Shown piece by piece: positions 1 to 14,039 of a DNA stretch of 64,000 bases (within the stretch, counting starts at the first letter, position 1; every line of letters begins with the position of its first letter). The position numbers and the translations under genes were made by a program. This DNA is from Burkholderiales bacterium (GTDB lineage: Bacteria > Pseudomonadota > Gammaproteobacteria > Burkholderiales > SG8-39). Under the pieces are notes generated by a model. The model had not been told where the DNA came from and did not search any database. It saw nothing but the letters and a program-made list of their open reading frames with translations. Where the stretch lies: positions 62,001-126,000 of the forward strand of contig JACZJT010000012.1 of assembly GCA_014860445.1 (NCBI GenBank), written 5' to 3'.

Positions 1-633
1 ATCCGAATGGTCGCGCGTTCCAGTTATTCCGAAACGGCGGTGCTCGCGCTCACCTTCGCCGCGACCCTGCTTCTGGAACTCGAATTCGCGATTTTGGTCG
101 GGGTCACGCTGTCGCTGGTGGTCTATCTTAACCGGACGTCGCGCCCGACCATGCGCAGCTTGGTGCCGGACTCGCGCCAGACCGAGCGCAAGATGGTGTT
201 GGCGACCGAGGCGCAACTCCCCGAGTGCCCGCAACTCAAGATCCTTCTCATCGAGGGTTCGATCTATTTCGGCGCAGTAAACCATGTCGACACGCATTTC
301 GACATCCTGCGCGAAACGAGCCCGAGCCAGAAGCACCTGCTGCTCATGTCGAATAGCATCAATTTCATCGATGTCGCCGGCACCGAGTTGCTCGCGCACG
401 AGGCGGCACGCCGCTGGAATATGGGCGGGCAGCTTTACTTCTACGGGCTACGCCAGTCTGTGTACGACATGCTCGAGCGCAGCGGGCATCTCGACGAGAT
501 CGGTCGGGAAAATATCTTCACGGACAAATCCGAGGCGATCGGCACCGTGTTCACGCGCCTCGACCGCCTCGTCTGCAAAACCTGCCACGCGCGCATTTTC
601 AACGAATGCGCAACATTGCCTCCGCCCGCATAG
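1..633 (+). CDS. SulP-family anion permease, C-terminal part with STAS domain (5' end outside window)
   Basis: The frame is open to the left edge of the window, so this is the 3' end of a longer gene. The first 45 or so residues form the last hydrophobic helices (LLLELEFAILVGVTLSLVVYL), followed by a soluble domain of about 130 residues with the beta-alpha pattern of a STAS domain, including a SIYFG strand and the NFIDVAGTELL loop. SulP proteins are inner-membrane transporters or channels for sulfate, bicarbonate and related anions, and the STAS domain regulates them. The substrate cannot be told from this fragment. It converges with the gene at 656-1405 with only 22 nt between them. Confidence 0.85.
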   Translation: MRMVARSSYSETAVLALTFAATLLLELEFAILVGVTLSLVVYLNRTSRPTMRSLVPDSRQTERKMVLATEAQLPECPQLKILLIEGSIYFGAVNHVDTHFDILRETSPSQKHLLLMSNSINFIDVAGTELLAHEAARRWNMGGQLYFYGLRQSVYDMLERSGHLDEIGRENIFTDKSEAIGTVFTRLDRLVCKTCHARIFNECATLPPPA

Positions 634-655: not shown

Positions 656-1405
656 CTATCGCCCGCGGCGAAACGGAATCGCGTTCAGCACCAGGCCCAG
701 CAGCATGGCCAGCAGCGTAAACAGGCTGCCGAAGAGCCAGGGGCGGTCGTGCGCGGCAACCCACACCCAACGCTCGATTCCGGACAAGTGCACGCGAAAA
801 CCGCCGGTGGTATGGCCGACCACTTTGCCGGACTTCACCAGCAGGGTTTCGATCGTGTAGTTCCCAACCTGCAAATCCGCCGGCAAGCGCATGTTGGCGA
901 TAAACAGCCGGTCTCCGAACACTCGGATGGCCGTGTCGTCTTCATGGTAATAACCCTGTTTCTCCTTGAGTCGAAGGAAGGCCTGACGCCAGTCTGACGC
1001 CGCATGCGCCTTTAATTGAGGCTCGACGCGCACCCAGACACCCTCAAGGCTCAGTCCATACTTCTGTTGCTCTTCGGGCGACAGGAGCGATGCGATCGGT
1101 GCGGTGGCATAGAGGAAAAGCAGGCTCGGCGCGTCCTCCATTTTCACCCTCTCGCCTTCGACCCAGAATGGTCCGAGCTTGGTCTCCCGCGACAGGGTCG
1201 CCTCCTGCTTCGGCCCCATAAGCTTGATAATCAGATCGCCCGACCGGCTCATCGCACCCACGGCCTCGACCGTGGTCCCGGCGAAATCCGTGGTGATTTT
1301 GACCTCGCTGATCGAGGGGGCGACGATCAGCGGCTCCTCTCCCCATGAGGGCGTCGACAACAAGAAGCCGAGCATCAGCGGCAGCAAGCGCGTCCAGCGT
1401 GCCAT
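656..1405 (-). CDS. TIGR02186-type membrane-anchored protein
   Basis: A 249-residue protein with an N-terminal signal peptide (LLPLMLGFLLSTPSWG), an extracytoplasmic beta-rich body and one C-terminal membrane helix (LFGSLFTLLAMLLGLVLNA) followed by a basic tail. It matches my memory of the TIGR02186 family, which has no known function and is often encoded beside TauE/SafE sulfite exporters. That is the case here: its ATG overlaps the exporter stop codon by one base (TGATG), so translation is probably coupled. The frame continues far upstream of this ATG, but that part is antisense-like shadow of the exporter gene. A role as a partner of the exporter is inference. Confidence 0.75.
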   Translation of the reverse strand: MARWTRLLPLMLGFLLSTPSWGEEPLIVAPSISEVKITTDFAGTTVEAVGAMSRSGDLIIKLMGPKQEATLSRETKLGPFWVEGERVKMEDAPSLLFLYATAPIASLLSPEEQQKYGLSLEGVWVRVEPQLKAHAASDWRQAFLRLKEKQGYYHEDDTAIRVFGDRLFIANMRLPADLQVGNYTIETLLVKSGKVVGHTTGGFRVHLSGIERWVWVAAHDRPWLFGSLFTLLAMLLGLVLNAIPFRRGR

Positions 1406-2385
1406 CAGCGCACCTCCACCGTCATGCCGTAGATGTCGCCCGGCGGAATCAGCAGGGTCACGATCATCTTGATGGCCACCGCGACCACGACCAGCGCGAG
1501 GATGAGGCGCAGCTTCTCCGCAGGCAGGCGCGCACCGAGCCGCGCACCGAATTTGGTCCCGATCACCGAGCCCAGGATAAGAATGATCGCGAGAAAGGGA
1601 TCGACCGAATGATTGATGCCGGCCTGCATGATACTCACCGCAGCGGTGGTGAACAGCAGCTGGAACAAGGAAGTGCCGACGACGATCTTGGTCGGCATCT
1701 TGAGCGCATAGATCATGATCGGCACCATAATGAAGCCGCCACCTACCCCCATCAGCGAGGTAAGGATGCCGACGACAGCGCCCAGGATCAGCGGACCGGC
1801 GATTGACATGCGCACGCCGGATGCGGGGAAGCTCGTCTGCCAGGGCATGCGCGCCACCCAGGTACGCAGCAGCGAATTCGACTCGGCAGATGCGCTCCGC
1901 TCCTTCTTGACCGGCGCGGCTGAGCGAAAGACAGCCCGCAACGATTCGATCAGCATGCTTACGCCGATGAAGCCGAGCAGGACCACATAGAGAAACACGA
2001 CCACGTTGCCGAACTGGCCCGAGCGCAGCAGTACCTTGGCGAGATAGACGCCGCCCCCGCCGCCGAGCCAGCTGCCTATCAGCAGAACCAGCCCCATCTT
2101 GAAATCGATGTTGCCGTTGCGCCAATGCAGAAAGCTCGCGCCGGAGGCCGTTCCCGCCATCTGTGCCGCACCGCTGGAGACCGCTACAATGGGGGGTATC
2201 CCGGTGAAAATGAGCAGGGGGGTGATCAGGAAACCGCCACCCACTCCGACCAGGCCGGAAAGAAAGCCTACCAGAGCGCCGTAGAGCGAAATCAGGACGA
2301 TATTGACGTCCATGTGCGCGATCGGCAGGAAAAATTCCATGAATGTTTTCGAAGTGATGAACAATAGTGCGAAGCGAGCAAGCAT
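1405..2385 (-). CDS. TauE/SafE-family exporter (DUF81)
   Basis: A polytopic membrane protein of up to 326 residues with the two glycine-rich repeats of the TauE/SafE family (GFLSGLVGVGGGFLITPLL near the N-terminus and GILTSLMGVGGGFIMVPIM in the middle). The family exports sulfite, sulfoacetate and related sulfur compounds. The start at 2385 has a GCGGG sequence upstream. Internal ATGs at 2340 and 2313 are possible and would place the start closer to the first conserved helix. It is translationally coupled to the TIGR02186-type gene downstream. With the SulP transporter nearby, a role in sulfur-anion traffic is plausible but not shown. Confidence 0.87.
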   Translation of the reverse strand: MLARFALLFITSKTFMEFFLPIAHMDVNIVLISLYGALVGFLSGLVGVGGGFLITPLLIFTGIPPIVAVSSGAAQMAGTASGASFLHWRNGNIDFKMGLVLLIGSWLGGGGGVYLAKVLLRSGQFGNVVVFLYVVLLGFIGVSMLIESLRAVFRSAAPVKKERSASAESNSLLRTWVARMPWQTSFPASGVRMSIAGPLILGAVVGILTSLMGVGGGFIMVPIMIYALKMPTKIVVGTSLFQLLFTTAAVSIMQAGINHSVDPFLAIILILGSVIGTKFGARLGARLPAEKLRLILALVVVAVAIKMIVTLLIPPGDIYGMTVEVR

Positions 2386-3956: not shown

Positions 3957-4562
3957 CTAGCCCTGTGCATCCACCATCGTCACGCCAATCAGGCTGTCAC
4001 GCGTCACCAGTTGCGCCAGTTGCTCTTCATCGAGACGTTCGGTCCCGGCCGGTCGCAGCGGCAAGACCATATAGCGCATATCGGCAGTGGAATCGTGGAC
4101 GCGGATCTCGACCTCGTCGGGGATGCGGGTGCCAAACTCCTGCAGCACCTTGCGCGGTTCGCGCACCACGCGACTCCTGTAATCACGGCTCTTGTACCAT
4201 TCGGGCGGCAGACCGAGCAGCATGCGCGGGTAGCACGAGCAAAGGGTGCACACGATCACGTTGTGCACGGACGGCGTGTCCTCGAGCACGATCAGGCGCA
4301 GAGGACCGACGGCAAAACCGAGTTCCTCCGCCGCCGCCGAGCCGTCCTTCAGCACGCGTGACTTGTAATCCGGATCGAGCCAGGCGCGCGCCACCATTTT
4401 TGCGCCCCGCCCCGGATCGCGGCTGTCCATGGCCTTGACTTCGCGCTCGACGTCGGCGCCGCTGAACACTCCCTTGAGGATCAGCAGCTCCTCTATCGCG
4501 CTTTGCATGCGGCGATAGTAGCCGCGGCTGTCCTGCGCGTCCTGTTCCTGCTGCCGGTTCAT
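3957..4562 (-). CDS. Cobalt-type nitrile hydratase alpha subunit / thiocyanate hydrolase gamma-like subunit
   Basis: A 201-residue protein with the metal-claw motif V-C-T-L-C-S-C (Cys105, Cys108, Ser109, Cys110). Thr after the first Cys is the signature of cobalt-type rather than iron-type enzymes. The surroundings (LGLPPEWYKS, VRVHDSTADMRYMVLPLRPAGTE, LVTRDSLIGV) match the NHase alpha family along its whole length. It hydrates nitriles to amides or, in thiocyanate hydrolase, converts thiocyanate to COS and ammonia. Its ATG overlaps the stop of the upstream beta-like gene (ATGA). No dedicated activator gene of the NHase beta-like or P15K type is visible nearby. I cannot decide the substrate from the sequence. 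The adjacent amidase favours nitriles, while the split beta subunit recalls thiocyanate hydrolase. Confidence 0.87.
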   Translation of the reverse strand: MNRQQEQDAQDSRGYYRRMQSAIEELLILKGVFSGADVEREVKAMDSRDPGRGAKMVARAWLDPDYKSRVLKDGSAAAEELGFAVGPLRLIVLEDTPSVHNVIVCTLCSCYPRMLLGLPPEWYKSRDYRSRVVREPRKVLQEFGTRIPDEVEIRVHDSTADMRYMVLPLRPAGTERLDEEQLAQLVTRDSLIGVTMVDAQG

Positions 4563-4861
4563 CGCGCCTCCAGCCAGTGCTGAAAAATTTCGATCTCGAC
4601 CGCGTCGCCGGCATTGCCTTCGTAATCCCGCCACAACTCGCGACAAAGAAAGCGCACGCGGTACAGGGGCTGCACAGGCAGGCCGTCGCGGTTGTAGGCG
4701 AGTTCTTCCGGATTGGCAAAATTGCCGCAGATGCGCTCGATCACGCCGTTATGGCCGCGGCAGTACCAGGGTGTGCGCACATGCCCCGGCGGATCGGCGC
4801 GGCGCACCTGCACCCGTGAGCCCGGTCCAAAGCGCGCCGGCACGGCTTCAGGCACGCTCAT
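4559..4861 (-). CDS. Nitrile hydratase beta subunit, C-terminal-domain protein (split beta; thiocyanate hydrolase alpha-like)
   Basis: A 100-residue protein equal to the C-terminal SH3-like half of NHase beta: FGPGSRVQVRR, then PPGHVRTPWYCRGHNGVIE, a Gly-rich turn, QPLYRVRF and ELWRDYEG before a final EIFQHWLEA. Full NHase beta subunits are about 220 residues, whereas here the two halves are separate genes. The start at 4861 has a GAGGA about 7 nt upstream. An ATG at 4900 would extend into the neighbour. It overlaps the N-terminal-half gene by 14 nt and the alpha gene by 4 nt. The arrangement matches scnB-scnA-scnC of thiocyanate hydrolase and other three-subunit NHases. A frameshift in one fused gene is the alternative, but this gene has its own start signal. 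Confidence 0.8.
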   Translation of the reverse strand: MSVPEAVPARFGPGSRVQVRRADPPGHVRTPWYCRGHNGVIERICGNFANPEELAYNRDGLPVQPLYRVRFLCRELWRDYEGNAGDAVEIEIFQHWLEAR

Positions 4862-5159
4862 CGCGATCCTCGATTTCCGCCATCTTGCGGCCCAGTTCAT
4901 CGATGCTGATCACACCGCGCTGGATTAGGGTCTGCGAGATCGAATGCATCCAGCGCTCATAGTAGCCCATGCGATCGTACGCATCCGCACCGAGGCTCTC
5001 GATATTTCTGCGCAGCTCATCGACCTTGAGCAACTGTCGCTCCTTGTCCGAGAGCAGCATCATCAGCGCGTCGACGCGCTTCTCCCACATTTCGTACTCG
5101 TGCTCGTCCGGTTCGCATCGGCCGGCCGGCAACCCGCCCATGTCGTGATGGCTGCGCAT
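4848..5159 (-). CDS. Nitrile hydratase beta subunit, N-terminal-domain protein (split beta; thiocyanate hydrolase beta-like)
   Basis: A 103-residue helical protein matching the N-terminal half of NHase beta: HHDMGG near the start, WEKRVDALMMLL in the middle, then RRNIESL, YYERWMHSISQTLIQRGVIS and a final DEL segment. The start at 5159 is set by a strong ribosome binding site (GGGAGGAG just upstream). An ATG at 5207 would add 16 residues without such a site. It is the first gene of the three-subunit set, lying 102 nt downstream of the amidase stop. That gap contains a large inverted repeat. The order N-half, C-half, alpha is that of thiocyanate hydrolase operons. Confidence 0.8.
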   Translation of the reverse strand: MRSHHDMGGLPAGRCEPDEHEYEMWEKRVDALMMLLSDKERQLLKVDELRRNIESLGADAYDRMGYYERWMHSISQTLIQRGVISIDELGRKMAEIEDRDERA

Positions 5160-5215
5160 AATCTCCTCCCGCGAGCGAATTAACGCATGAGTGGATATTT
5201 CCCTCATGCTCCCCT

Positions 5216-5261
5216 AATTCAGGGCCGTTTCGACAATGCTGAAACGGCCCGGTCCTGAATT
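5216..5261 (-). promoter_or_regulatory. Large inverted repeat between amidase and the nitrile hydratase-like genes
   Basis: A perfect 10-bp stem (GGGCCGTTTC at 5222-5231 with GAAACGGCCC at 5241-5250, loop of 9 nt) is flanked by a second pair of arms, AATTCAGG at 5216-5223 and CCTGAATT at 5254-5261, separated by a small bulge. It begins directly after the amidase stop codon. There is no T-tract, so it is not a standard intrinsic terminator. It could be an RNA stabiliser, an attenuator or an operator that sets different levels for the amidase and the downstream subunits. Confidence 0.6.
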
Positions 5262-6683
5262 CTACAGCGCGTCCGCCATCGGCGGACGGCGCTTCCAAAG
5301 CTGCGTTGACTGTTCGAATGCGTAGGCCAGCTGCAGCACGCCGAAATCATCCTGGTGGCGTCCGACGATCTGCACGCCCACCGGCAAGCCGTCCGCGGTA
5401 AAGCCACAGGGTACCGAGATTGCCGGGTGGCCTGTAATCGTAATGTAGTAGCAGGATTTCATCCAGTCTATGTAGGTCTCCATCGCCACGCCTTCTATTT
5501 CGTTCACATAGGGCACATCGACGTCGAACGGCGGAACCTGGTTCACCGGCAGGATCAGAAACTCGTAGCGCTGCATGAAATTGCGCATGCGCTCGAATAG
5601 CGCGGTGCGCTTTGCTTCCGCAGCGCCTACGCTCGGACCCGTGAGCTTCCGGCCGACCTCGATATTCCAGATCACCGTGTCCTTGAGCAGGTCGCGGTGA
5701 CGGTCCAGATGCTCGCCGTAGGAAAGCTCGAATTGCCAGGCGCGCAAGGTCTTGAATATCCCGTCCGCGTCCGACAAGTCGGGCGTGGCATCTTCCACGG
5801 AGCAGCCGAGCGCGGCGAAGCTCGGTCGCTGCGAAGCCAGCACCGCGGCAACGCGCGCATCCAGCGGCAGCCCGCCCAGATCGGCGCTCCAGGCGATGCG
5901 CACTCCCTTGAAGTCGCGCACCAGCGGCCGCGCAAACGCGCTGCCCGGCTCGGCGATCGCGATGGGGCTTCTTGCATCCCAGCCAGCGATCACGCTCAGC
6001 ATCAGCGCGCAATCCTCGACGGTGCGCGCCATCGGGCCTTCCACGCCGAGCGTGCTCCAGCCGGTTTTCGCCGGCCAGACCGGCACCCGCCCGGGCGAAG
6101 TGCGCAGGCCGACGATATTGCAGAAATTCGCCGGACAGCGCAGCGATCCACCCATGTCGCTCCCGTCGGCGAGGGGCACCATGCCGGCAGCCAGTGCGAC
6201 CGCCGCCCCCCCGGAAGAACCGCCGCAGGTCTTGCTGCTGTCGTAGGGATTGAGGGTTTTGCCGAATACCGCGTTGAAAGTCTGCGAACCGGCGCCAAAC
6301 TCGGGTGTATTGGTCTTGCCTATGGAAATCGCCCCCGCCGCCTGCAATCGATCCACGATCAGCAGGTTCCGGTCGGGGACAAAGTCCTTGAAAATCGACG
6401 AGCCGAAGGTCGTGCGCATGCCGCGGGTCAGAAACAGATCCTTGTGCGCGACGGGCAGGCCGTGCAATGCCGCGAGCGTTTCGCCGCGCGCCTGCTTCTC
6501 GTCGGCTGCGAGCGCCTGCGCCATGGCCTGCTCGGCATGCAGCGTGACGATGGCATTGAGTTTCGGGTTGAGGCGCTCGATCTGCGCGAGCGACGCCTGC
6601 ATCAGTTCGCGTGCCGACAGGTCCTTGCGCCGGATGCGCCGGGACAATTCGGTCGCCGGCAGAAAGCAGATATCTTCTTTCAT
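5262..6683 (-). CDS. Amidase-signature family amidohydrolase
   Basis: A 473-residue enzyme of the amidase-signature family, hydrolysing an amide to acid and ammonia. The catalytic triad is visible: Lys81 (AHKDLF), the cis-Ser in GGSSGG (about Ser156) and the nucleophile Ser180 in GSDMGGS. Length and the C-terminal GHPAISVPCGF segment are normal for the family, which also includes GatA and fatty-acid amide hydrolases. It is not GatA, because no gatB or gatC is present. It lies on the same strand just upstream of the split nitrile hydratase-like genes, so together they could take a nitrile through an amide to an acid. A LysR regulator gene lies 95 nt upstream. Confidence 0.88.
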   Translation of the reverse strand: MKEDICFLPATELSRRIRRKDLSARELMQASLAQIERLNPKLNAIVTLHAEQAMAQALAADEKQARGETLAALHGLPVAHKDLFLTRGMRTTFGSSIFKDFVPDRNLLIVDRLQAAGAISIGKTNTPEFGAGSQTFNAVFGKTLNPYDSSKTCGGSSGGAAVALAAGMVPLADGSDMGGSLRCPANFCNIVGLRTSPGRVPVWPAKTGWSTLGVEGPMARTVEDCALMLSVIAGWDARSPIAIAEPGSAFARPLVRDFKGVRIAWSADLGGLPLDARVAAVLASQRPSFAALGCSVEDATPDLSDADGIFKTLRAWQFELSYGEHLDRHRDLLKDTVIWNIEVGRKLTGPSVGAAEAKRTALFERMRNFMQRYEFLILPVNQVPPFDVDVPYVNEIEGVAMETYIDWMKSCYYITITGHPAISVPCGFTADGLPVGVQIVGRHQDDFGVLQLAYAFEQSTQLWKRRPPMADAL

Positions 6684-6778: not shown

Positions 6779-7687
6779 TTATTTCGGCGGACGACTCGCG
6801 AGTTCCAGCAACGCGTCGCGCAGCCACTGCTGGGCCGGATCGCGCTCATTGCGCTCATGCCAGATCTCGCCGACGGTGAATCCTTCGAGGTCGAGCGGCG
6901 GCTCGAAAATGCGCAGTTTTTTCGCGTAACCTCGCGCCAGGCGCTCGGGCAGCGCGCTGATCATGTCCGAACGCGCAAGAATTTCCGGAACCAGCAGAAA
7001 ATGCGGCACCGACAGACGCACGCGGCGCTTCCTACCCAACGCGGCCAGCGCCCCATCAATCTGGGTGCTGAATCCGCTGCCGGGTACGGAGACCCGGATG
7101 TGCTCCAGGCTGCAGAACGTGTCCAACGTCAGGTGGGCGCCTACCCCCGGATGGTCGCGCCGTACCACAGACACGATGCGCTCCATATAAAGCGGCCGCA
7201 CGTGCAGACCGGCGGGGGCGTTCTGCAGCCCGGTGATGCAAAGGTCGACATCGCCACTTTCCATCTGCTTTGCCACCAACGGCAGATCGAGCGCGCTTAC
7301 TTCCAGCCGCACCCCGGGGGCTTTGCGCTCCAGGTAGTCCACCAGTTTCGGCACCAGGGCGTATTCGACGTAGTCCGAGGACGAAAGACGAAAAGTGTGT
7401 TCCGCGCTGGCCGCATCGAATGCCGCGCGCGGCTGAACGATTGCGTCTATCTCGTCCAGCACCCGCCGCACCGGACCCAGCAGTTCCAGGGCCCGCGGCG
7501 TCGGCAGCATGCCCCGGGCGCTGCGCAACAGCAGGGGATCACCGAATAGCTCACGCAAACGCGCGAGCAGTGCGCTCGCCGCCGGTTGCGACAGATGCAG
7601 ACGCACCGCGGCACGCGATACATTGCGCTCGGCCAGCAGCGCGTCAAGCGCGACCAGCAGGTTAAGATCGATATTTCGTATATCCAT
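6779..7687 (-). CDS. LysR-family transcriptional regulator
   Basis: A 302-residue protein with the LysR winged helix-turn-helix at residues 9-68 (DLNLLVALDALLAERNVSRAA, then LHLSQPAASALLARLRELF) and a periplasmic-binding-protein-like effector domain after residue 90. The phrasing of the N-terminus and effector domain is close to the NodD/SyrM-like subgroup. It is transcribed in the same direction as the downstream amidase rather than divergently, so it may be co-transcribed with it or control it from an upstream site. Control of the amidase/nitrile hydratase-like genes is inference from position. Confidence 0.88.
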   Translation of the reverse strand: MDIRNIDLNLLVALDALLAERNVSRAAVRLHLSQPAASALLARLRELFGDPLLLRSARGMLPTPRALELLGPVRRVLDEIDAIVQPRAAFDAASAEHTFRLSSSDYVEYALVPKLVDYLERKAPGVRLEVSALDLPLVAKQMESGDVDLCITGLQNAPAGLHVRPLYMERIVSVVRRDHPGVGAHLTLDTFCSLEHIRVSVPGSGFSTQIDGALAALGRKRRVRLSVPHFLLVPEILARSDMISALPERLARGYAKKLRIFEPPLDLEGFTVGEIWHERNERDPAQQWLRDALLELASRPPK

Positions 7688-9451: not shown

Positions 9452-11524
9452 TTACGCCGGCTTTGCGCGCAGCGCGACCTGCGTCCACACCCGGTCGATG
9501 GCCGCAAGCACGTCGTCCGCGCTCTGCAGGCGTTCCAACGGATCCTTGGCGAGCATGCCGTCGAGCAGCGTCTGGTAGTCTTCCAGGGCCTCAGGCAGCC
9601 GGGGCACCGGTGCGTGCACGTGCTGCGATATCAGCTCGACGATGGAATTGCCGTCAAACGGCCGTTGGTTCATGAGCATTTCGTAGAAGATAATGCCCAG
9701 GCTGTAAATGTCGGAGCGCTCGGTCGCCTGCTTGCCATTCGCCTGTTCCGGCGAAATGTAATAGGGCGTGCCGAAAAATTCACCGTGCACGGTTCTATCC
9801 ATCGATCCCGAAGAGCGCTTGGCGATGCCGAAATCGGTCAGCACCATGGTGCCGTCCGCGCGCAGCATCATGTTTGCCGGTTTGACATCGCGGTGCACGA
9901 TGCCCAGGCGATGAATTTCCGCCAGCGCAGCAGAAGCCTGCGCCAGCAAGGACAGGGCCTGGCGCGGTGACAGCCCCTGGGCAATGACGTCCTTCAGGCT
10001 GCCGCCGGTAAAATACTCCATCGCGATATAGGCGTATTCGTCGGTGAACCCCTTGTCGTAAATCCGAACCACGTTGGTGTGATCTATATCCGATATCAGT
10101 TCCGACTCCTGAATAAAACGCTGCAGCAGCTGCTTGTCGTCACTTGGCCGTGCGTTGAGTATCTTTAGCGCCACTTGCTCGCCGTCTGATTCGCGGTCGG
10201 CGAGGAAGACATTGGACATGCCGCCTTCACCGATCTTGGACAGCACCCGATAACCTTTTACCTGCAGCGGCCTGCCGGCGGCCAGCGCTCGCGACAGATC
10301 ACTGGTGATAATGCGCAGGGTTTCCGACAGCGCCGCTTTTGCGGCCCGCGCGGTCATTTTCGCGTTCTCGGCAAGCGCAGCGCGCAGCGAGTCGGGCACC
10401 TCGATCGGCCCCTCCTCCGCGCCTTCCGCGGCACCGATGCCGGTGACTTCCATCGCTTCGATCGGCGCGTTGCGGCCGCGCAGTTCGAGCAGGCGCGATT
10501 CTCCGGTGCTGACCAGGCTGCCCGCCATGCTGATCGCAGCGGCGCTTGCCACCACCGGCCAGCCCAGTTCCTTGGTCTGCCCCTCGAGTCGCGACGCTAC
10601 GTTGACGCTGTCGCCAACCACGGTCAGGTCTTCGGCACCGGGGGGACCGATGCGCACCTCCATCAGATCGCCGGTGTGGATGCCTACGCCGGTTGCAAAT
10701 TCGGGCAAGCCGCCCAGATCGAAATGCTGCTTGAACCATTCACCGAAGCCGTTCGCCGCAAGCACGATTCCGAGTCCGGCGCGCACGGCGCGGCGTGCGT
10801 GGTTGTCCTCGCCGTCTTCTTCGCGCGCCTCGAACACCACCATGATCCCGTCGCCGATCAATTTTGCGATGCGCCCACCGTTACGCACGATCGGTTGGCA
10901 TACGGCCTCGAAATAAGCGTTGAGCAGCTCGGCGATCTGGCCCGCGGTGAGACGCTCCGAATAGGTGGTGAAATTGCGAACGTCGGCGAACAGTACCGTC
11001 GCCACAGTCATCTTGCCGGTCATGCCGGCGGTTTCCGCGAATGCAAGCGGGCGCTCGCGTTCAGCGCCGGCCAGACTCTCCCGGTACCAGCGTTTGAGTT
11101 CGTCGTTTCCCGCGACCATGCGCTCCGCCAGCGAGCGCGTCGCATTTTCATATTTCTTCAACCGCGAATTCACCGCGTCGATCAATTCGTCGCGCGTGAA
11201 CGGCTTGTTGAGAAAATCATCCGCGCCCAGGTTCATGCCGCGGCGCATGCTGGTCCTGTCATTGAGCGCCGTAAGGAAGATGAAAGGTGTGTCGGCGAAT
11301 TGCTGCTCGGAACGCAAGGCCTCCAGCATGCCGAATCCGTCCACCTCCGGCATCATGACGTCGCTGACGATCAAATCCGGCGCAAAACTCTTTGCATGCT
11401 CGATGCCGGCGCGGCCGTCCTCCGCCGAATCCACTTCATAGCCTTCGCCTTTCAGCATCAGCGTCAGGTTCAGGCGGATCGAAGCCTCGTCCTCGACTAC
11501 CAGTATTTTCTTTTTCACGGTCAT
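9452..11524 (-). CDS. Three-domain signalling protein: receiver, class III nucleotide cyclase, Hanks-type Ser/Thr kinase
   Basis: A 690-residue cytoplasmic protein. Receiver domain about 6-125: acidic pair Glu11/Asp12, phospho-acceptor Asp55, Thr85, Lys107. Class III cyclase about 172-365: metal-binding Asp181 (FADVRNFT) and Asp225 (IGDG), Lys221 before IGD, and [15 protein letters not shown] with Thr where class IIIb adenylate cyclases have it, plus the Asn and Arg of the transition state. Protein kinase about 425-685: Gly loop GEGGMSNV, Lys454, HRDVKPAN (Asp546) and DFG (Asp564). All key residues are present, so each domain should be active. Its ATG overlaps the stop of the receiver gene upstream (ATGA). 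It probably receives phosphate from the operon's histidine kinase and outputs both cAMP and Ser/Thr phosphorylation. No membrane segment is seen. Confidence 0.9.
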
Positions 11525-11886
11525 GGTCCCAGGCAGCGTCCGACCGCACTGCGCAGCTGCTCCATGTCGAAGGGTTTGGCCAGCACCTCGGTCGCGCCGC
11601 GCCGCAGAGCCATGGCGCGCGCCTCCTCGTTCATTAACGCCGAAAAAAGCAGCACCGGCACCTTGGAAAACTGCGGGTCGGCGCGCAGGGTCTCGAGTAC
11701 GGCATAGCCGCCCAGATGCGGCATGACCACATCGCAGATGATCAGCTCGGGATGAAATTGCTTCACCAGCGCAAGCCCCTGCTCGCCGTCCGCGGCATGC
11801 GCCAGTTCGTGCCCGTCGACGCGCATCACGTGCTGCATGAAATCGAGGCTGGACTCGTCGTCATCGATGAGCACGACACGCGCCAC
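11521..11886 (-). CDS. Single-domain response regulator (receiver)
   Basis: A 121-residue stand-alone receiver with acidic residues DDD at 8-10, phospho-acceptor Asp52 (ICDVVMP), Ser82 and Lys104 (AKPF). It has no output domain. It lies between the histidine kinase (2-nt gap) and the receiver-cyclase-kinase protein (4-nt overlap), so it may act as a CheY-like partner or a phosphate sink or relay in the same pathway. Confidence 0.9.
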   Translation of the reverse strand: MARVVLIDDDESSLDFMQHVMRVDGHELAHAADGEQGLALVKQFHPELIICDVVMPHLGGYAVLETLRADPQFSKVPVLLFSALMNEEARAMALRRGATEVLAKPFDMEQLRSAVGRCLGP

Positions 11887-11888
11887 GA

Positions 11889-14039
11889 TCAGGCCGCCTT
11901 CTTGGTATTCATCAGCGGCAGAAGCACGCTGAAGCGGGTGCCCGCATCGACCTTGCTGTCGATCGAAATGGTGCCGCCGTGCAATTCGACCGCCTTCTTT
12001 GCAATCACCAGCCCGAGGCCGGTACCCTGTCGGTTACCCACATTGGATGCGCGGTGAAAGCTCTCGAACAGGCGCGCCTGGTCTTCGGGCGGAATGCCGA
12101 TACCCTGATCACCCACCTCGATCAAGGCCTGGCCGTCGCGTTCCGCCAGCAGCAGCGAAATGGTACTTTTGGCAGGGGAGTATTTTGCCGCGTTGGAGAG
12201 CAGATTGGTGAGGATATGGCGCAGCAACTTCTCGTCCAGGTTCAAGCTGCCGCGCTCGAACTGCTGGTCGAATTGAATGACATGATCCTTGGCCACGCCG
12301 CCGCGCACTTCTTCGACGACCTTGTTGCACAAATCGCGCAGATCCATCGGTTTCGGATCGAACTGCAGCGCACCCGCCTCGGCTTTGCCTATGATCAGCA
12401 CATCTTCGATCATCGCATTCATGCGTTTCACGGCGCCCTGGATGCCGTGCAGCATCTTCAGCCTGTCTTCCGCGGACAGGCTGTCGGAATAATGCTCCAG
12501 TAGCTCGGAGGAGGACAGAATTGTCGCCAGCGGCGTACGCAACTCGTGCGAGGCGATGGAAACGAACTTGGACTTCATTTCCGACAGTTCTTTTTCGCGC
12601 TGCAGCGCCGTGAGCAACTCCGCCTCGGCGCGTTTGCGCTGGGTGATGTCCACGTTGGTTCCCGTCATGCGCAATGCGCGACCGTCGTCCCCGCGCTCGA
12701 CCACGCGGCCGCGGCTAAGCACCCAGACCCAGTCGCCGCCCACCGTTTTCAGTCTATGCTCTATGCGGTAGAGTGGTCGCAGACCGCTGATGCAATCCGC
12801 CTGTGCCTGGCGCAAGGCGGTGGCTTCGTCCGGGTGCACCATCGGCACAAACTCATCGAGTTTGATATAGCGCTCGCGCGGCTCCTCGCCCGTCATCTGC
12901 GACAGCGCCGCATCCAGATAAAGCGTACCGCGCCTCGCATCCCATTCCCAGATCGAGATGGCCGAGGACTGCATTGCAAGGTCGAGTCTTTCCTTGGTCT
13001 GTTGCAGCGCCGCCTCCGCCAGCTTGCGTTCGGTAATGTCGCCTATCCCGATAATAATTCCATCCTGCGGCTTGGCGGCGTCGATCGCGCGGCTGTCGGT
13101 AAATACCCAGATCGGGGTGCCATCCTTCTTCCGCAGCAGCAATTCCGCGGAATAGTTTTCGCCCTGGGAGAATCGCTTGTAGGCTCCGCTGCCCGGCCGC
13201 ATGAAATCGTCGTCGGATTGATACCAGACGTCGGTCGGCTTGTCGGCAATTTCATGTATCTCGTAGCCGAGAATCCCGGCAAATCGCTGATTGCATTTCA
13301 CTACGCTACCCTGACTGACAAAGGCGATGCCGACCGCAGCCGTGTCGAAAATCAGCCGTTGTTCCGCCAATGCAGACGTCAAAGACTTTTCGGCGACCTG
13401 CAGTTTCTGGAGCAGCAGGGTGTTCTCGTGACCATAGGCCAGGGTTTCGATCAAGGCATAGTGGTTGGACAGGTAAAGCCCCAGCAGCACGGTCGCGAAA
13501 ACCAGCATCAGCAATGCGGTAGAGGTATTGAGCCCGCCGCCGAAGGTCAGCAGCATCGCCACCATCGGCGCGAGTATGGGCAGAATAAAGCTGGTGAACG
13601 CCTTCGGGCTGGGCGCCAGGGAAGGCGGCAAGCCCATGGCCACGCTGCTGATCAGGAAGGTGACAGTGAGTTCCTGCAGGGACGTCGGCGTATGACCGAT
13701 CAGCATGAGCGCCAGCCCCCAGCCGGCGCCGACCAGCGCACTGGCCAGGCAGAAATAATTTTCCCACTGCCCCGCGTATTCCGCCGCGGGTTGGCGACTG
13801 CGATACACGCGCGCCATCGCATAGCGCACCGAACTCGCCACACCCAGCCATATAAACCAGATGACGATCAGATTGACGTCGATGAAACCCCACATCGCGA
13901 ACGCGGTGATGGCCGCGGCCACGAGAATGATGGGCACGTCGGTACCGGAGAGCCGGTACAGCATGGAAACACGCTCGGGCAGGTAATCAACCGACGACAT
14001 GGCTGCCAGCCGATTGCGGATCCTCGCCAACGAAATCAC
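11889..14039 (-). CDS. Membrane-bound PAS-domain sensor histidine kinase
   Basis: A 716-residue kinase. Residues about 33-195 form six or seven hydrophobic helices, a membrane sensor module I cannot assign to a named MASE family with confidence. Then come PAS domain 1 (about 226-340, ending GIGDITERK), PAS domain 2 with a PAC motif (about 350-470, ending GTNVDITQRK), HisKA with SHELRTPL (His498), and HATPase_c (about 600-710) with the N box, DQGIGIP and GTGLGL. It starts a three-gene operon with a receiver protein and the receiver-cyclase-kinase fusion. The signal is unknown; PAS domains with no obvious cofactor residues give no clue. Confidence 0.92.
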   Translation of the reverse strand: MISLARIRNRLAAMSSVDYLPERVSMLYRLSGTDVPIILVAAAITAFAMWGFIDVNLIVIWFIWLGVASSVRYAMARVYRSRQPAAEYAGQWENYFCLASALVGAGWGLALMLIGHTPTSLQELTVTFLISSVAMGLPPSLAPSPKAFTSFILPILAPMVAMLLTFGGGLNTSTALLMLVFATVLLGLYLSNHYALIETLAYGHENTLLLQKLQVAEKSLTSALAEQRLIFDTAAVGIAFVSQGSVVKCNQRFAGILGYEIHEIADKPTDVWYQSDDDFMRPGSGAYKRFSQGENYSAELLLRKKDGTPIWVFTDSRAIDAAKPQDGIIIGIGDITERKLAEAALQQTKERLDLAMQSSAISIWEWDARRGTLYLDAALSQMTGEEPRERYIKLDEFVPMVHPDEATALRQAQADCISGLRPLYRIEHRLKTVGGDWVWVLSRGRVVERGDDGRALRMTGTNVDITQRKRAEAELLTALQREKELSEMKSKFVSIASHELRTPLATILSSSELLEHYSDSLSAEDRLKMLHGIQGAVKRMNAMIEDVLIIGKAEAGALQFDPKPMDLRDLCNKVVEEVRGGVAKDHVIQFDQQFERGSLNLDEKLLRHILTNLLSNAAKYSPAKSTISLLLAERDGQALIEVGDQGIGIPPEDQARLFESFHRASNVGNRQGTGLGLVIAKKAVELHGGTISIDSKVDAGTRFSVLLPLMNTKKAA

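Follow-up and report, generated by a model that had tools for sequence, protein, structure and literature searches.

Among described nitrile hydratases (NHases), the system closest to the one considered here is ScNHase of Streptomyces canus, an active enzyme which is encoded by anhD-anhE-anhA, i.e., by separate genes for the N-part of the beta subunit, its C-part and the alpha subunit, in a genome without an activator gene, and into which cobalt enters under dithiothreitol without an activator (PMC7329996). The N-half, AnhD, was reported there to be a chaperone, and the AnhD2A complex is said to act as a metal and swapping chaperone (PMC7329996). Here we analyze a 64,000-nt stretch from a Burkholderiales bacterium (assembly GCA_014860445.1, contig JACZJT010000012.1, positions 62,001–126,000 of the forward strand; this whole stretch is called the window), in which adjoining genes encode the free N-terminal half of an NHase beta subunit (betaN), its free C-terminal half (betaC) and an alpha subunit. 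We consider it likely that this operon specifies a three-subunit, activator-free, cobalt-type NHase of the ScNHase kind, because its gene order and the lack of an activator gene match the biochemistry published for ScNHase (PMC7329996). A preliminary description of the window had proposed an undescribed three-subunit NHase; the three subunits stand, whereas the novelty does not, since the S. canus enzyme has the same order and no activator (PMC7329996).

In the literature found, the activator-free three-gene form is treated as an exception, represented by S. canus only. PMC13243292 repeats the three-subunit description of ScNHase and attributes key roles to the residues AnhD-Glu56 and AnhE-His21. 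TNHase is described as an (alpha beta gamma)2 complex (PMC8574189). None of the six gene organizations given in the available part of a 2020 review is betaN-betaC-alpha without an activator, and activators are termed indispensable there, eukaryotic NHases excepted (PMC7193024). The available portions of PMC10098168 and PMC2603476 do not describe a split, activator-free clade, and a literature search that had most subscription journals outside its reach found no description of a wider clade or of the activator pattern reported below.

The source genome is 4.6 Mb in size and 99.5% complete. Of the NHase beta model TIGR03888, betaN covers positions 1–101 and betaC positions 132–224 of 226, i.e., only the N-half and only the C-half; both pass their Pfam cut-offs (Table 1), and neither reaches the full-length TIGR03888 cut-off. 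A beta subunit that is one polypeptide in canonical two-subunit NHases is encoded here by two genes, which overlap by 14 nt, and betaC overlaps alpha by 4 nt (ATGA). A ribosome-binding-like sequence, read by eye, precedes each NHase gene start (GGAGGAG, GAGG and GGAGG), so that coordinates and start signals bear out the earlier claim of two overlapping short beta genes (103 and 100 residues) with starts of their own. An alternative in-frame ATG of betaN lies at 5207; homology starts only from 5159, where L003 and L004, the two close relatives discussed below (loci carry L numbers, genomes G numbers), also have Met. The alpha subunit passes TIGR01323 narrowly (256.1 bits against the curated equivalog cut-off of 249.85), and its metal motif, VCTLCSCYPR, contains the CTLCSC noted earlier, in which Thr at the second place would mark a cobalt-type enzyme.

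The alpha family has two sides. In a FastTree phylogeny of 271 alpha domains, from which four of the 275 rows had been dropped as too short, these sides comprise 163 and 108 sequences, and the same bipartition has a support of 100/100 in a tree of concatenated betaN, betaC and alpha from 53 selected of 261 complete loci, the bootstrap of which had not settled. We named the groups by the third residue after the last cysteine of the metal motif, and the whole-domain tree, which includes that column, gives the 163/108 division without mixing. In 157 rows of the R-type this residue is Arg (134), Val (15) or Lys (8), and it is Arg in six thiocyanate hydrolases (SCNases), while the 108 canonical-side rows have Trp (99), Phe (5), His (2) or Tyr (2). 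The window alpha has Arg113 where canonical enzymes have Trp, which we take to line the NHase pocket. At the position of alpha H156, His is found in 129/157 R-type rows and Trp in 107/108 rows of the canonical side; the six SCNases have Ala or Val there.

Searches of the whole window genome for an activator retrieved nothing but betaN. PF21006 (E ≤ 0.001) gave a single match, betaN itself; TIGR03889 gave no match at E ≤ 0.001 and only betaN, with 13 bits, at E ≤ 10; and a profile built from six P15K-like proteins again found only betaN, with 21 bits. The 274 and 268 bits that this profile gives in two SCNase genomes show only that the search works, because the P15K-like proteins of these genomes (L152 and L156) are in the profile. 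Neither a dedicated P14K-type nor a P15K-type activator gene was found in the window genome; the preliminary description, too, had noted no activator gene.

To place this result, 398 genomes of the phylum and 399 of the order were surveyed, which gave 138 genomes with a full alpha after partial matches under 100 bits were left out. A TIGR03889 activator was present over cut-off in one of 29 genomes with R-type enzymes only, the exception being G571 (46.4 bits across 41 of the 74 model positions, with a partial second alpha close by), and in 96/96 genomes with a Co-type canonical-side enzyme (77 with this type alone, 19 alongside the R-type); the Fisher p is 4.5e-27, calculated ignoring relatedness. 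The six SCNase-only genomes have no TIGR03889 activator, and each has a P15K-like gene behind gamma. Seven CSCT-type genomes, also without one, were set apart since they have another motif and perhaps other helpers. The P15K profile was applied to every R-only genome except G571 (28 of 29), to four canonical and to two SCNase genomes: weak matches of 21–44 bits over approximately the last 40% of the profile occurred in 12/28 R-only genomes, each at most about 1 kb upstream of alpha and on its strand, where betaN lies, and no match was found in the four canonical-enzyme genomes. Seven genomes of genus g228 (G407, G445, G486, G616, G644, G671, and G698) have 4–5 NHase alpha matches each, with R-type and canonical enzymes side by side. 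A further group of 291 genomes, searched for kin of TNHase, contained one full alpha.

The conserved residues of betaN are those of a beta subunit. In its HDxGG start, Asp and both Gly are kept in 98–99% of 153 R-type betaN and 97–100% of 102 fused canonical beta subunits, and His in 92% and 81%, respectively, while activators do not show the motif, in a comparison that counted six free canonical betaN among its 105 "activators." The residue at position 50 of the 103-aa protein, called R66 after the 119-aa reading P0001, is Arg in 153/153 R-type betaN, 102/102 fused canonical beta subunits and 6/6 free canonical betaN, here counted apart from the activators, and in 3/99 P14K-type activators. 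We therefore rejected the candidate that betaN is a mere P14K-type activator. Judged from its HDxGG start and R66, betaN is a true beta half. In betaC, conservation across 153 R-type sequences is 98% for His27, 99% for Arg29 and 90% for Arg35.

We hypothesize that betaN, betaC and alpha assemble as (betaN betaC alpha)2, that the cobalt centre would form on the CTLCSC cysteines, and that the enzyme would hydrate a nitrile to the amide, which the adjacent amidase would cut to acid and ammonia. By homology with S. canus, free betaN may form a betaN2-alpha intermediate that aids cobalt loading and hands its loaded alpha over to the enzyme by swapping; a separate activator would be unneeded because betaN would do both. 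The alternative that survives best departs from this scheme in the maturation step only: alpha would load and oxidize its own cobalt site, and betaN would be only a structural and catalytic half. We regard this as a real possibility, though one we hold at somewhat worse than even chances. ToyJ, the TNHase alpha of S. rimosus, was reported to be sufficient for maturation on its own (PMC7329996, citing Nelp 2014), the S. canus alpha alone takes up 0.57–0.58 mol cobalt per mol (PMC7329996), and betaN keeps beta-type residues rather than those of P14K-type activators. However, the S. canus alpha alone is inactive, Holo-AnhDEA has more cobalt (0.84), and Holo-AnhDA raises the activity of the apo-enzyme to 54% (PMC7329996), and kinship with TNHase is putative.

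A second alternative, raised in the preliminary description, is that the operon encodes an SCNase or a close variant, betaN-betaC-gamma, converting SCN− to COS and ammonia. The scnB-scnA-scnC-like order with a split beta is present in the window, as had been noted, and the same order occurs in six SCNase loci (L152–L157); Arg113 corresponds, in alignment numbering, to gamma Arg136 of the Thiobacillus thioparus SCNase, and the alpha tree has SCNases and the window on one side. By contrast, the window alpha scores 209.9 bits with the SCNase gamma model TIGR03887, below the cut-off of 291.45, while 7/399 genomes of the same order reach 338–400 bits; its best matches among PDB sequences are NHases (204–214 bits), ahead of SCNase gamma (170 bits); QSPEWYR and other SCNase residues are absent from it; no P15K gene was found in the genome with the profile; and it is not evident what an amidase would do in SCN− hydrolysis. 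Thiocyanate is an unlikely substrate, because TIGR03887 fails and P15K was not found, and the reading as SCNase is correspondingly improbable. In the concatenated tree, SCNases, the loci with permuted gene order and L088 cluster at 98/96; the tree favors a position of SCNase nested within the R-type, which would make it a branch of this clade, and the approximately unbiased test leaves the alternative unrejected (p-AU 0.475).

The survey suggests that the arrangement of an NHase with a split beta is widespread. The GTDB species genomes were scanned with alpha, and among the best 80 of 82 related loci, 71 have betaN, betaC and alpha as separate open reading frames (ORFs) in the order of the window, including loci labelled Nitrospinota (phylum and order labels of surveyed genomes are inferred from near relatives) and L063, which has a second betaN. 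At seven loci alpha stands alone; six of these alphas begin within 30 bases of the locus end, and L044, alone despite 12.5 kb of sequence, is a true exception to the split order. Of the remaining two, L008 shows betaC-alpha only, with betaC starting at the locus end, and at L056 (4396–5454) betaN is fused to alpha in one ORF with betaC on the opposite strand. Among plasmid records, 178 had a match, of which 40 were listed and eight examined. The window order is found in plasmids of Planktothrix (L084) and Streptomyces (L088), the permuted order betaC-alpha-betaN in two Rhizobium records, Polymorphobacter and Microvirga (L085–L087 and L091), as also at L185, and a fused beta at L089, annotated scnC, and at L090, a canonical locus with activator and amidase; L089 was counted as split in the locus table of the activator survey though its beta is a single chain. 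Annotations of the beta halves in these records read "SH3-like domain-containing protein" and once "nitrile hydratase." Separate betaN and betaC genes occur in 147/161 R-type rows overall. That the two beta genes are one beta gene broken by a frameshift or assembly error has next to no probability: the halves do sit in one chain in canonical enzymes, but the split is conserved at 71/80 loci, in Nitrospinota-labelled loci and in Planktothrix and Streptomyces plasmids, each half has its own start, and dN/dS is ≤0.15 in both. The statement in the preliminary description that this is not a broken gene, and the comparison with relatives that it proposed, thus came out in favor of the split.

Several loci depart from this arrangement. 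L246 (4010–5146, minus strand) has a betaN-alpha fusion in one ORF, with no betaC found within the 8.6-kb locus; L238 (4706–6700, minus strand), from a genome 79% complete, is R-type but has a single-chain beta, which reflects either a refusion or the assembly; and the R-type alpha of L081 (5854–6366) misses the CTLCSC stretch in frame, being either a metal-less alpha or an assembly chimera. On the canonical side, L114, L220, L222, L223, and L224 are Trp-type with beta split into two genes and the activator kept, and L235 is Trp-type with a split beta at a locus cut by a contig end, in which no activator was seen. From the tree, beta seems to have split on that side on two further, separate occasions. 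Because the five canonical-side loci named first combine a split beta with an activator, we rejected the idea that splitting beta directly brought about the loss of the activator.

The closest relatives, L003 and L004, from metagenome-assembled genomes titled Betaproteobacteria and Burkholderiales, have alphas 87 and 90% identical to that of the window and keep the order LysR-amidase-betaN-betaC-alpha, with the amidase directly upstream of betaN in both. Purifying selection acts on all four genes, because dN/dS of the window against L003 and L004, respectively, computed with our own script, is 0.05–0.15: 0.13 and 0.10 for the amidase, 0.056 and 0.053 for betaN, 0.146 and 0.115 for betaC, and 0.13 and 0.12 for alpha. 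The trait is patchy, since G697, from the same genus as the window genome, carries a canonical locus of alpha, beta and activator (L233) instead.

The amidase next to the operon (NF005686, 540.9 bits, above the cut-off of 465) suggests a route from nitrile to amide and on to acid and ammonia. The natural substrate may, as a guess, be small, polar or anionic, because Arg113 replaces the canonical Trp. No conserved neighbor that would name a substrate was found among 740 neighbor ORFs clustered; the largest cluster comprises 41 of them at 25 loci, 22 from the same-order survey, and its two members scanned both match TctC receptors, and the other clusters are diverse. At plasmid loci L085, L086, L087, and L091, aquaporin and/or CbtAB or HoxN-type cobalt transporters adjoin the NHase genes, and an aquaporin beside an NHase may point to a small neutral substrate. 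In Planktothrix plasmid p1 (L084, 1382–3301), betaN is preceded on its strand by asnB, which encodes an asparagine synthase and stops 12 bases short of it. Apart from TauE and a STAS-domain piece lying close by, nothing was found to support the sulfur link of the preliminary description, and these two are neighbors rather than evidence of function; TauE and SDR genes also lie near the NHase genes at L004. A terminator scan, covering loops of 3–8 only, lists nothing at the inverted repeat ahead of betaN, and the repeat was not seen in the short amidase-betaN gaps of L003 and L004. Elsewhere in the window, one 690-aa ORF (9452–11524, minus strand) combines response-regulator, adenylate/guanylate cyclase and protein kinase domains, and is followed by a response regulator (11521–11886) and a PAS histidine kinase (11889–14039).

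Table 1. Predicted NHase genes of the window and features around them (positions in the window).
Feature	Position	Strand	Match or remark
alpha, cobalt-type NHase alpha, 201 aa	3957–4562	-	PF02979, 1.7e-79
betaC, free C-terminal half of NHase beta, 100 aa	4559–4861	-	PF02211, 4e-21
betaN, free N-terminal half of NHase beta, 103 aa	4848–5159	-	PF21006, 2.3e-17
Amidase-signature hydrolase, 473 aa, PRK07486 subfamily	5262–6683	-	PF01425, 1.2e-98
LysR-type regulator	6779–7687	-	PF03466 and PF00126; upstream of amidase, same strand
Perfect 10-bp inverted repeat GGGCCGTTTC..GAAACGGCCC, 9-nt loop, without T run	5222–5250	.	amidase-betaN gap; read by eye
TauE	1405–2385		genuine family match; neighbor
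STAS-domain match	7–633		neighbor

Several points weigh against a ScNHase-like enzyme acting together with the amidase. In the tree, which does not include S. canus itself, the window and the Streptomyces locus L088 stand on different branches, and the assignment as an enzyme is a prediction from sequence. The S. canus alpha took up cobalt alone, so that betaN was not strictly needed for cobalt entry there, and S. rimosus ToyJ is reported to mature alone (PMC7329996). R66 is Arg in 12/12 rows from SCNase loci, betaN and P15K alike; this residue alone cannot exclude an activator role because the P15K proteins of SCNase carry it, and with respect to P15K only HDxGG counts against an activator identity of betaN. 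No NicO or CbtA cobalt transporter was found in the window genome, other transporter families not having been searched. Further, amidase and betaN are separated by a 102-bp gap with an inverted repeat. Relatives of the window amidase (phmmer E ≤ 1e-15; up to 3.5 kb from alpha, in flanks of differing length) accompany 12/159 R-type and 8/108 canonical-side alphas, and on these counts we rejected the amidase as a general partner of the clade.

Taken together, these surveys suggest that the split, activator-free clade is much larger than the literature found implies, and that the activator-free three-gene form is common in Proteobacteria, occurring also in Planktothrix and Streptomyces plasmids and in loci labelled Nitrospinota. 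We speculate, as a rather doubtful proposition in its full extent, that the R-type three-subunit enzymes form a separate half of the NHase family, in which free betaN would serve as catalytic half and loading chaperone without a dedicated metallochaperone, the Arg/Lys/Val pocket would suit small polar or anionic nitrile-like substrates, and SCNase would be a specialized branch later paired with an activator of its own. Should the activator pattern hold, three short genes could suffice to express these enzymes, with no helper protein, and their comparison with canonical enzymes would reveal the real role of the activator. The R-type clade also offers a testable origin for SCNase.

Compared with ScNHase (Streptomyces canus CGMCC 13662), the window operon is alike in the order betaN-betaC-alpha, the cobalt type and the lack of a detected activator gene, a likeness that draws on the S. 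canus description and the homologue L088. AnhE-His21 would correspond to His27 of the window betaC provided that AnhE is numbered like its Streptomyces homologue in L088, where the residue is His21, whereas AnhD-Glu56 is unmatched, residue 56 of the L088 betaN as annotated being Arg. The neighbors also differ, with LysR and amidase in the window and aquaporin and HoxN at L088. TNHase of S. rimosus, which belongs to an antibiotic pathway, is alike in its three subunits, as known from its description. The T. thioparus SCNase, ScnBAC with P15K (PDB 2dd4), shares the gene order, the split beta, the cobalt motif and the Arg three residues past the cysteine cluster, whereas the window misses the curated model, has no P15K found and no signature residues, and has an amidase. 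Finally, the canonical cobalt NHases (alpha-beta-P14K) are alike in domains, cobalt motif and conserved beta arginines, and differ from the window in that its beta comes in two chains, no dedicated activator was found, and Arg stands in place of Trp after CYP.

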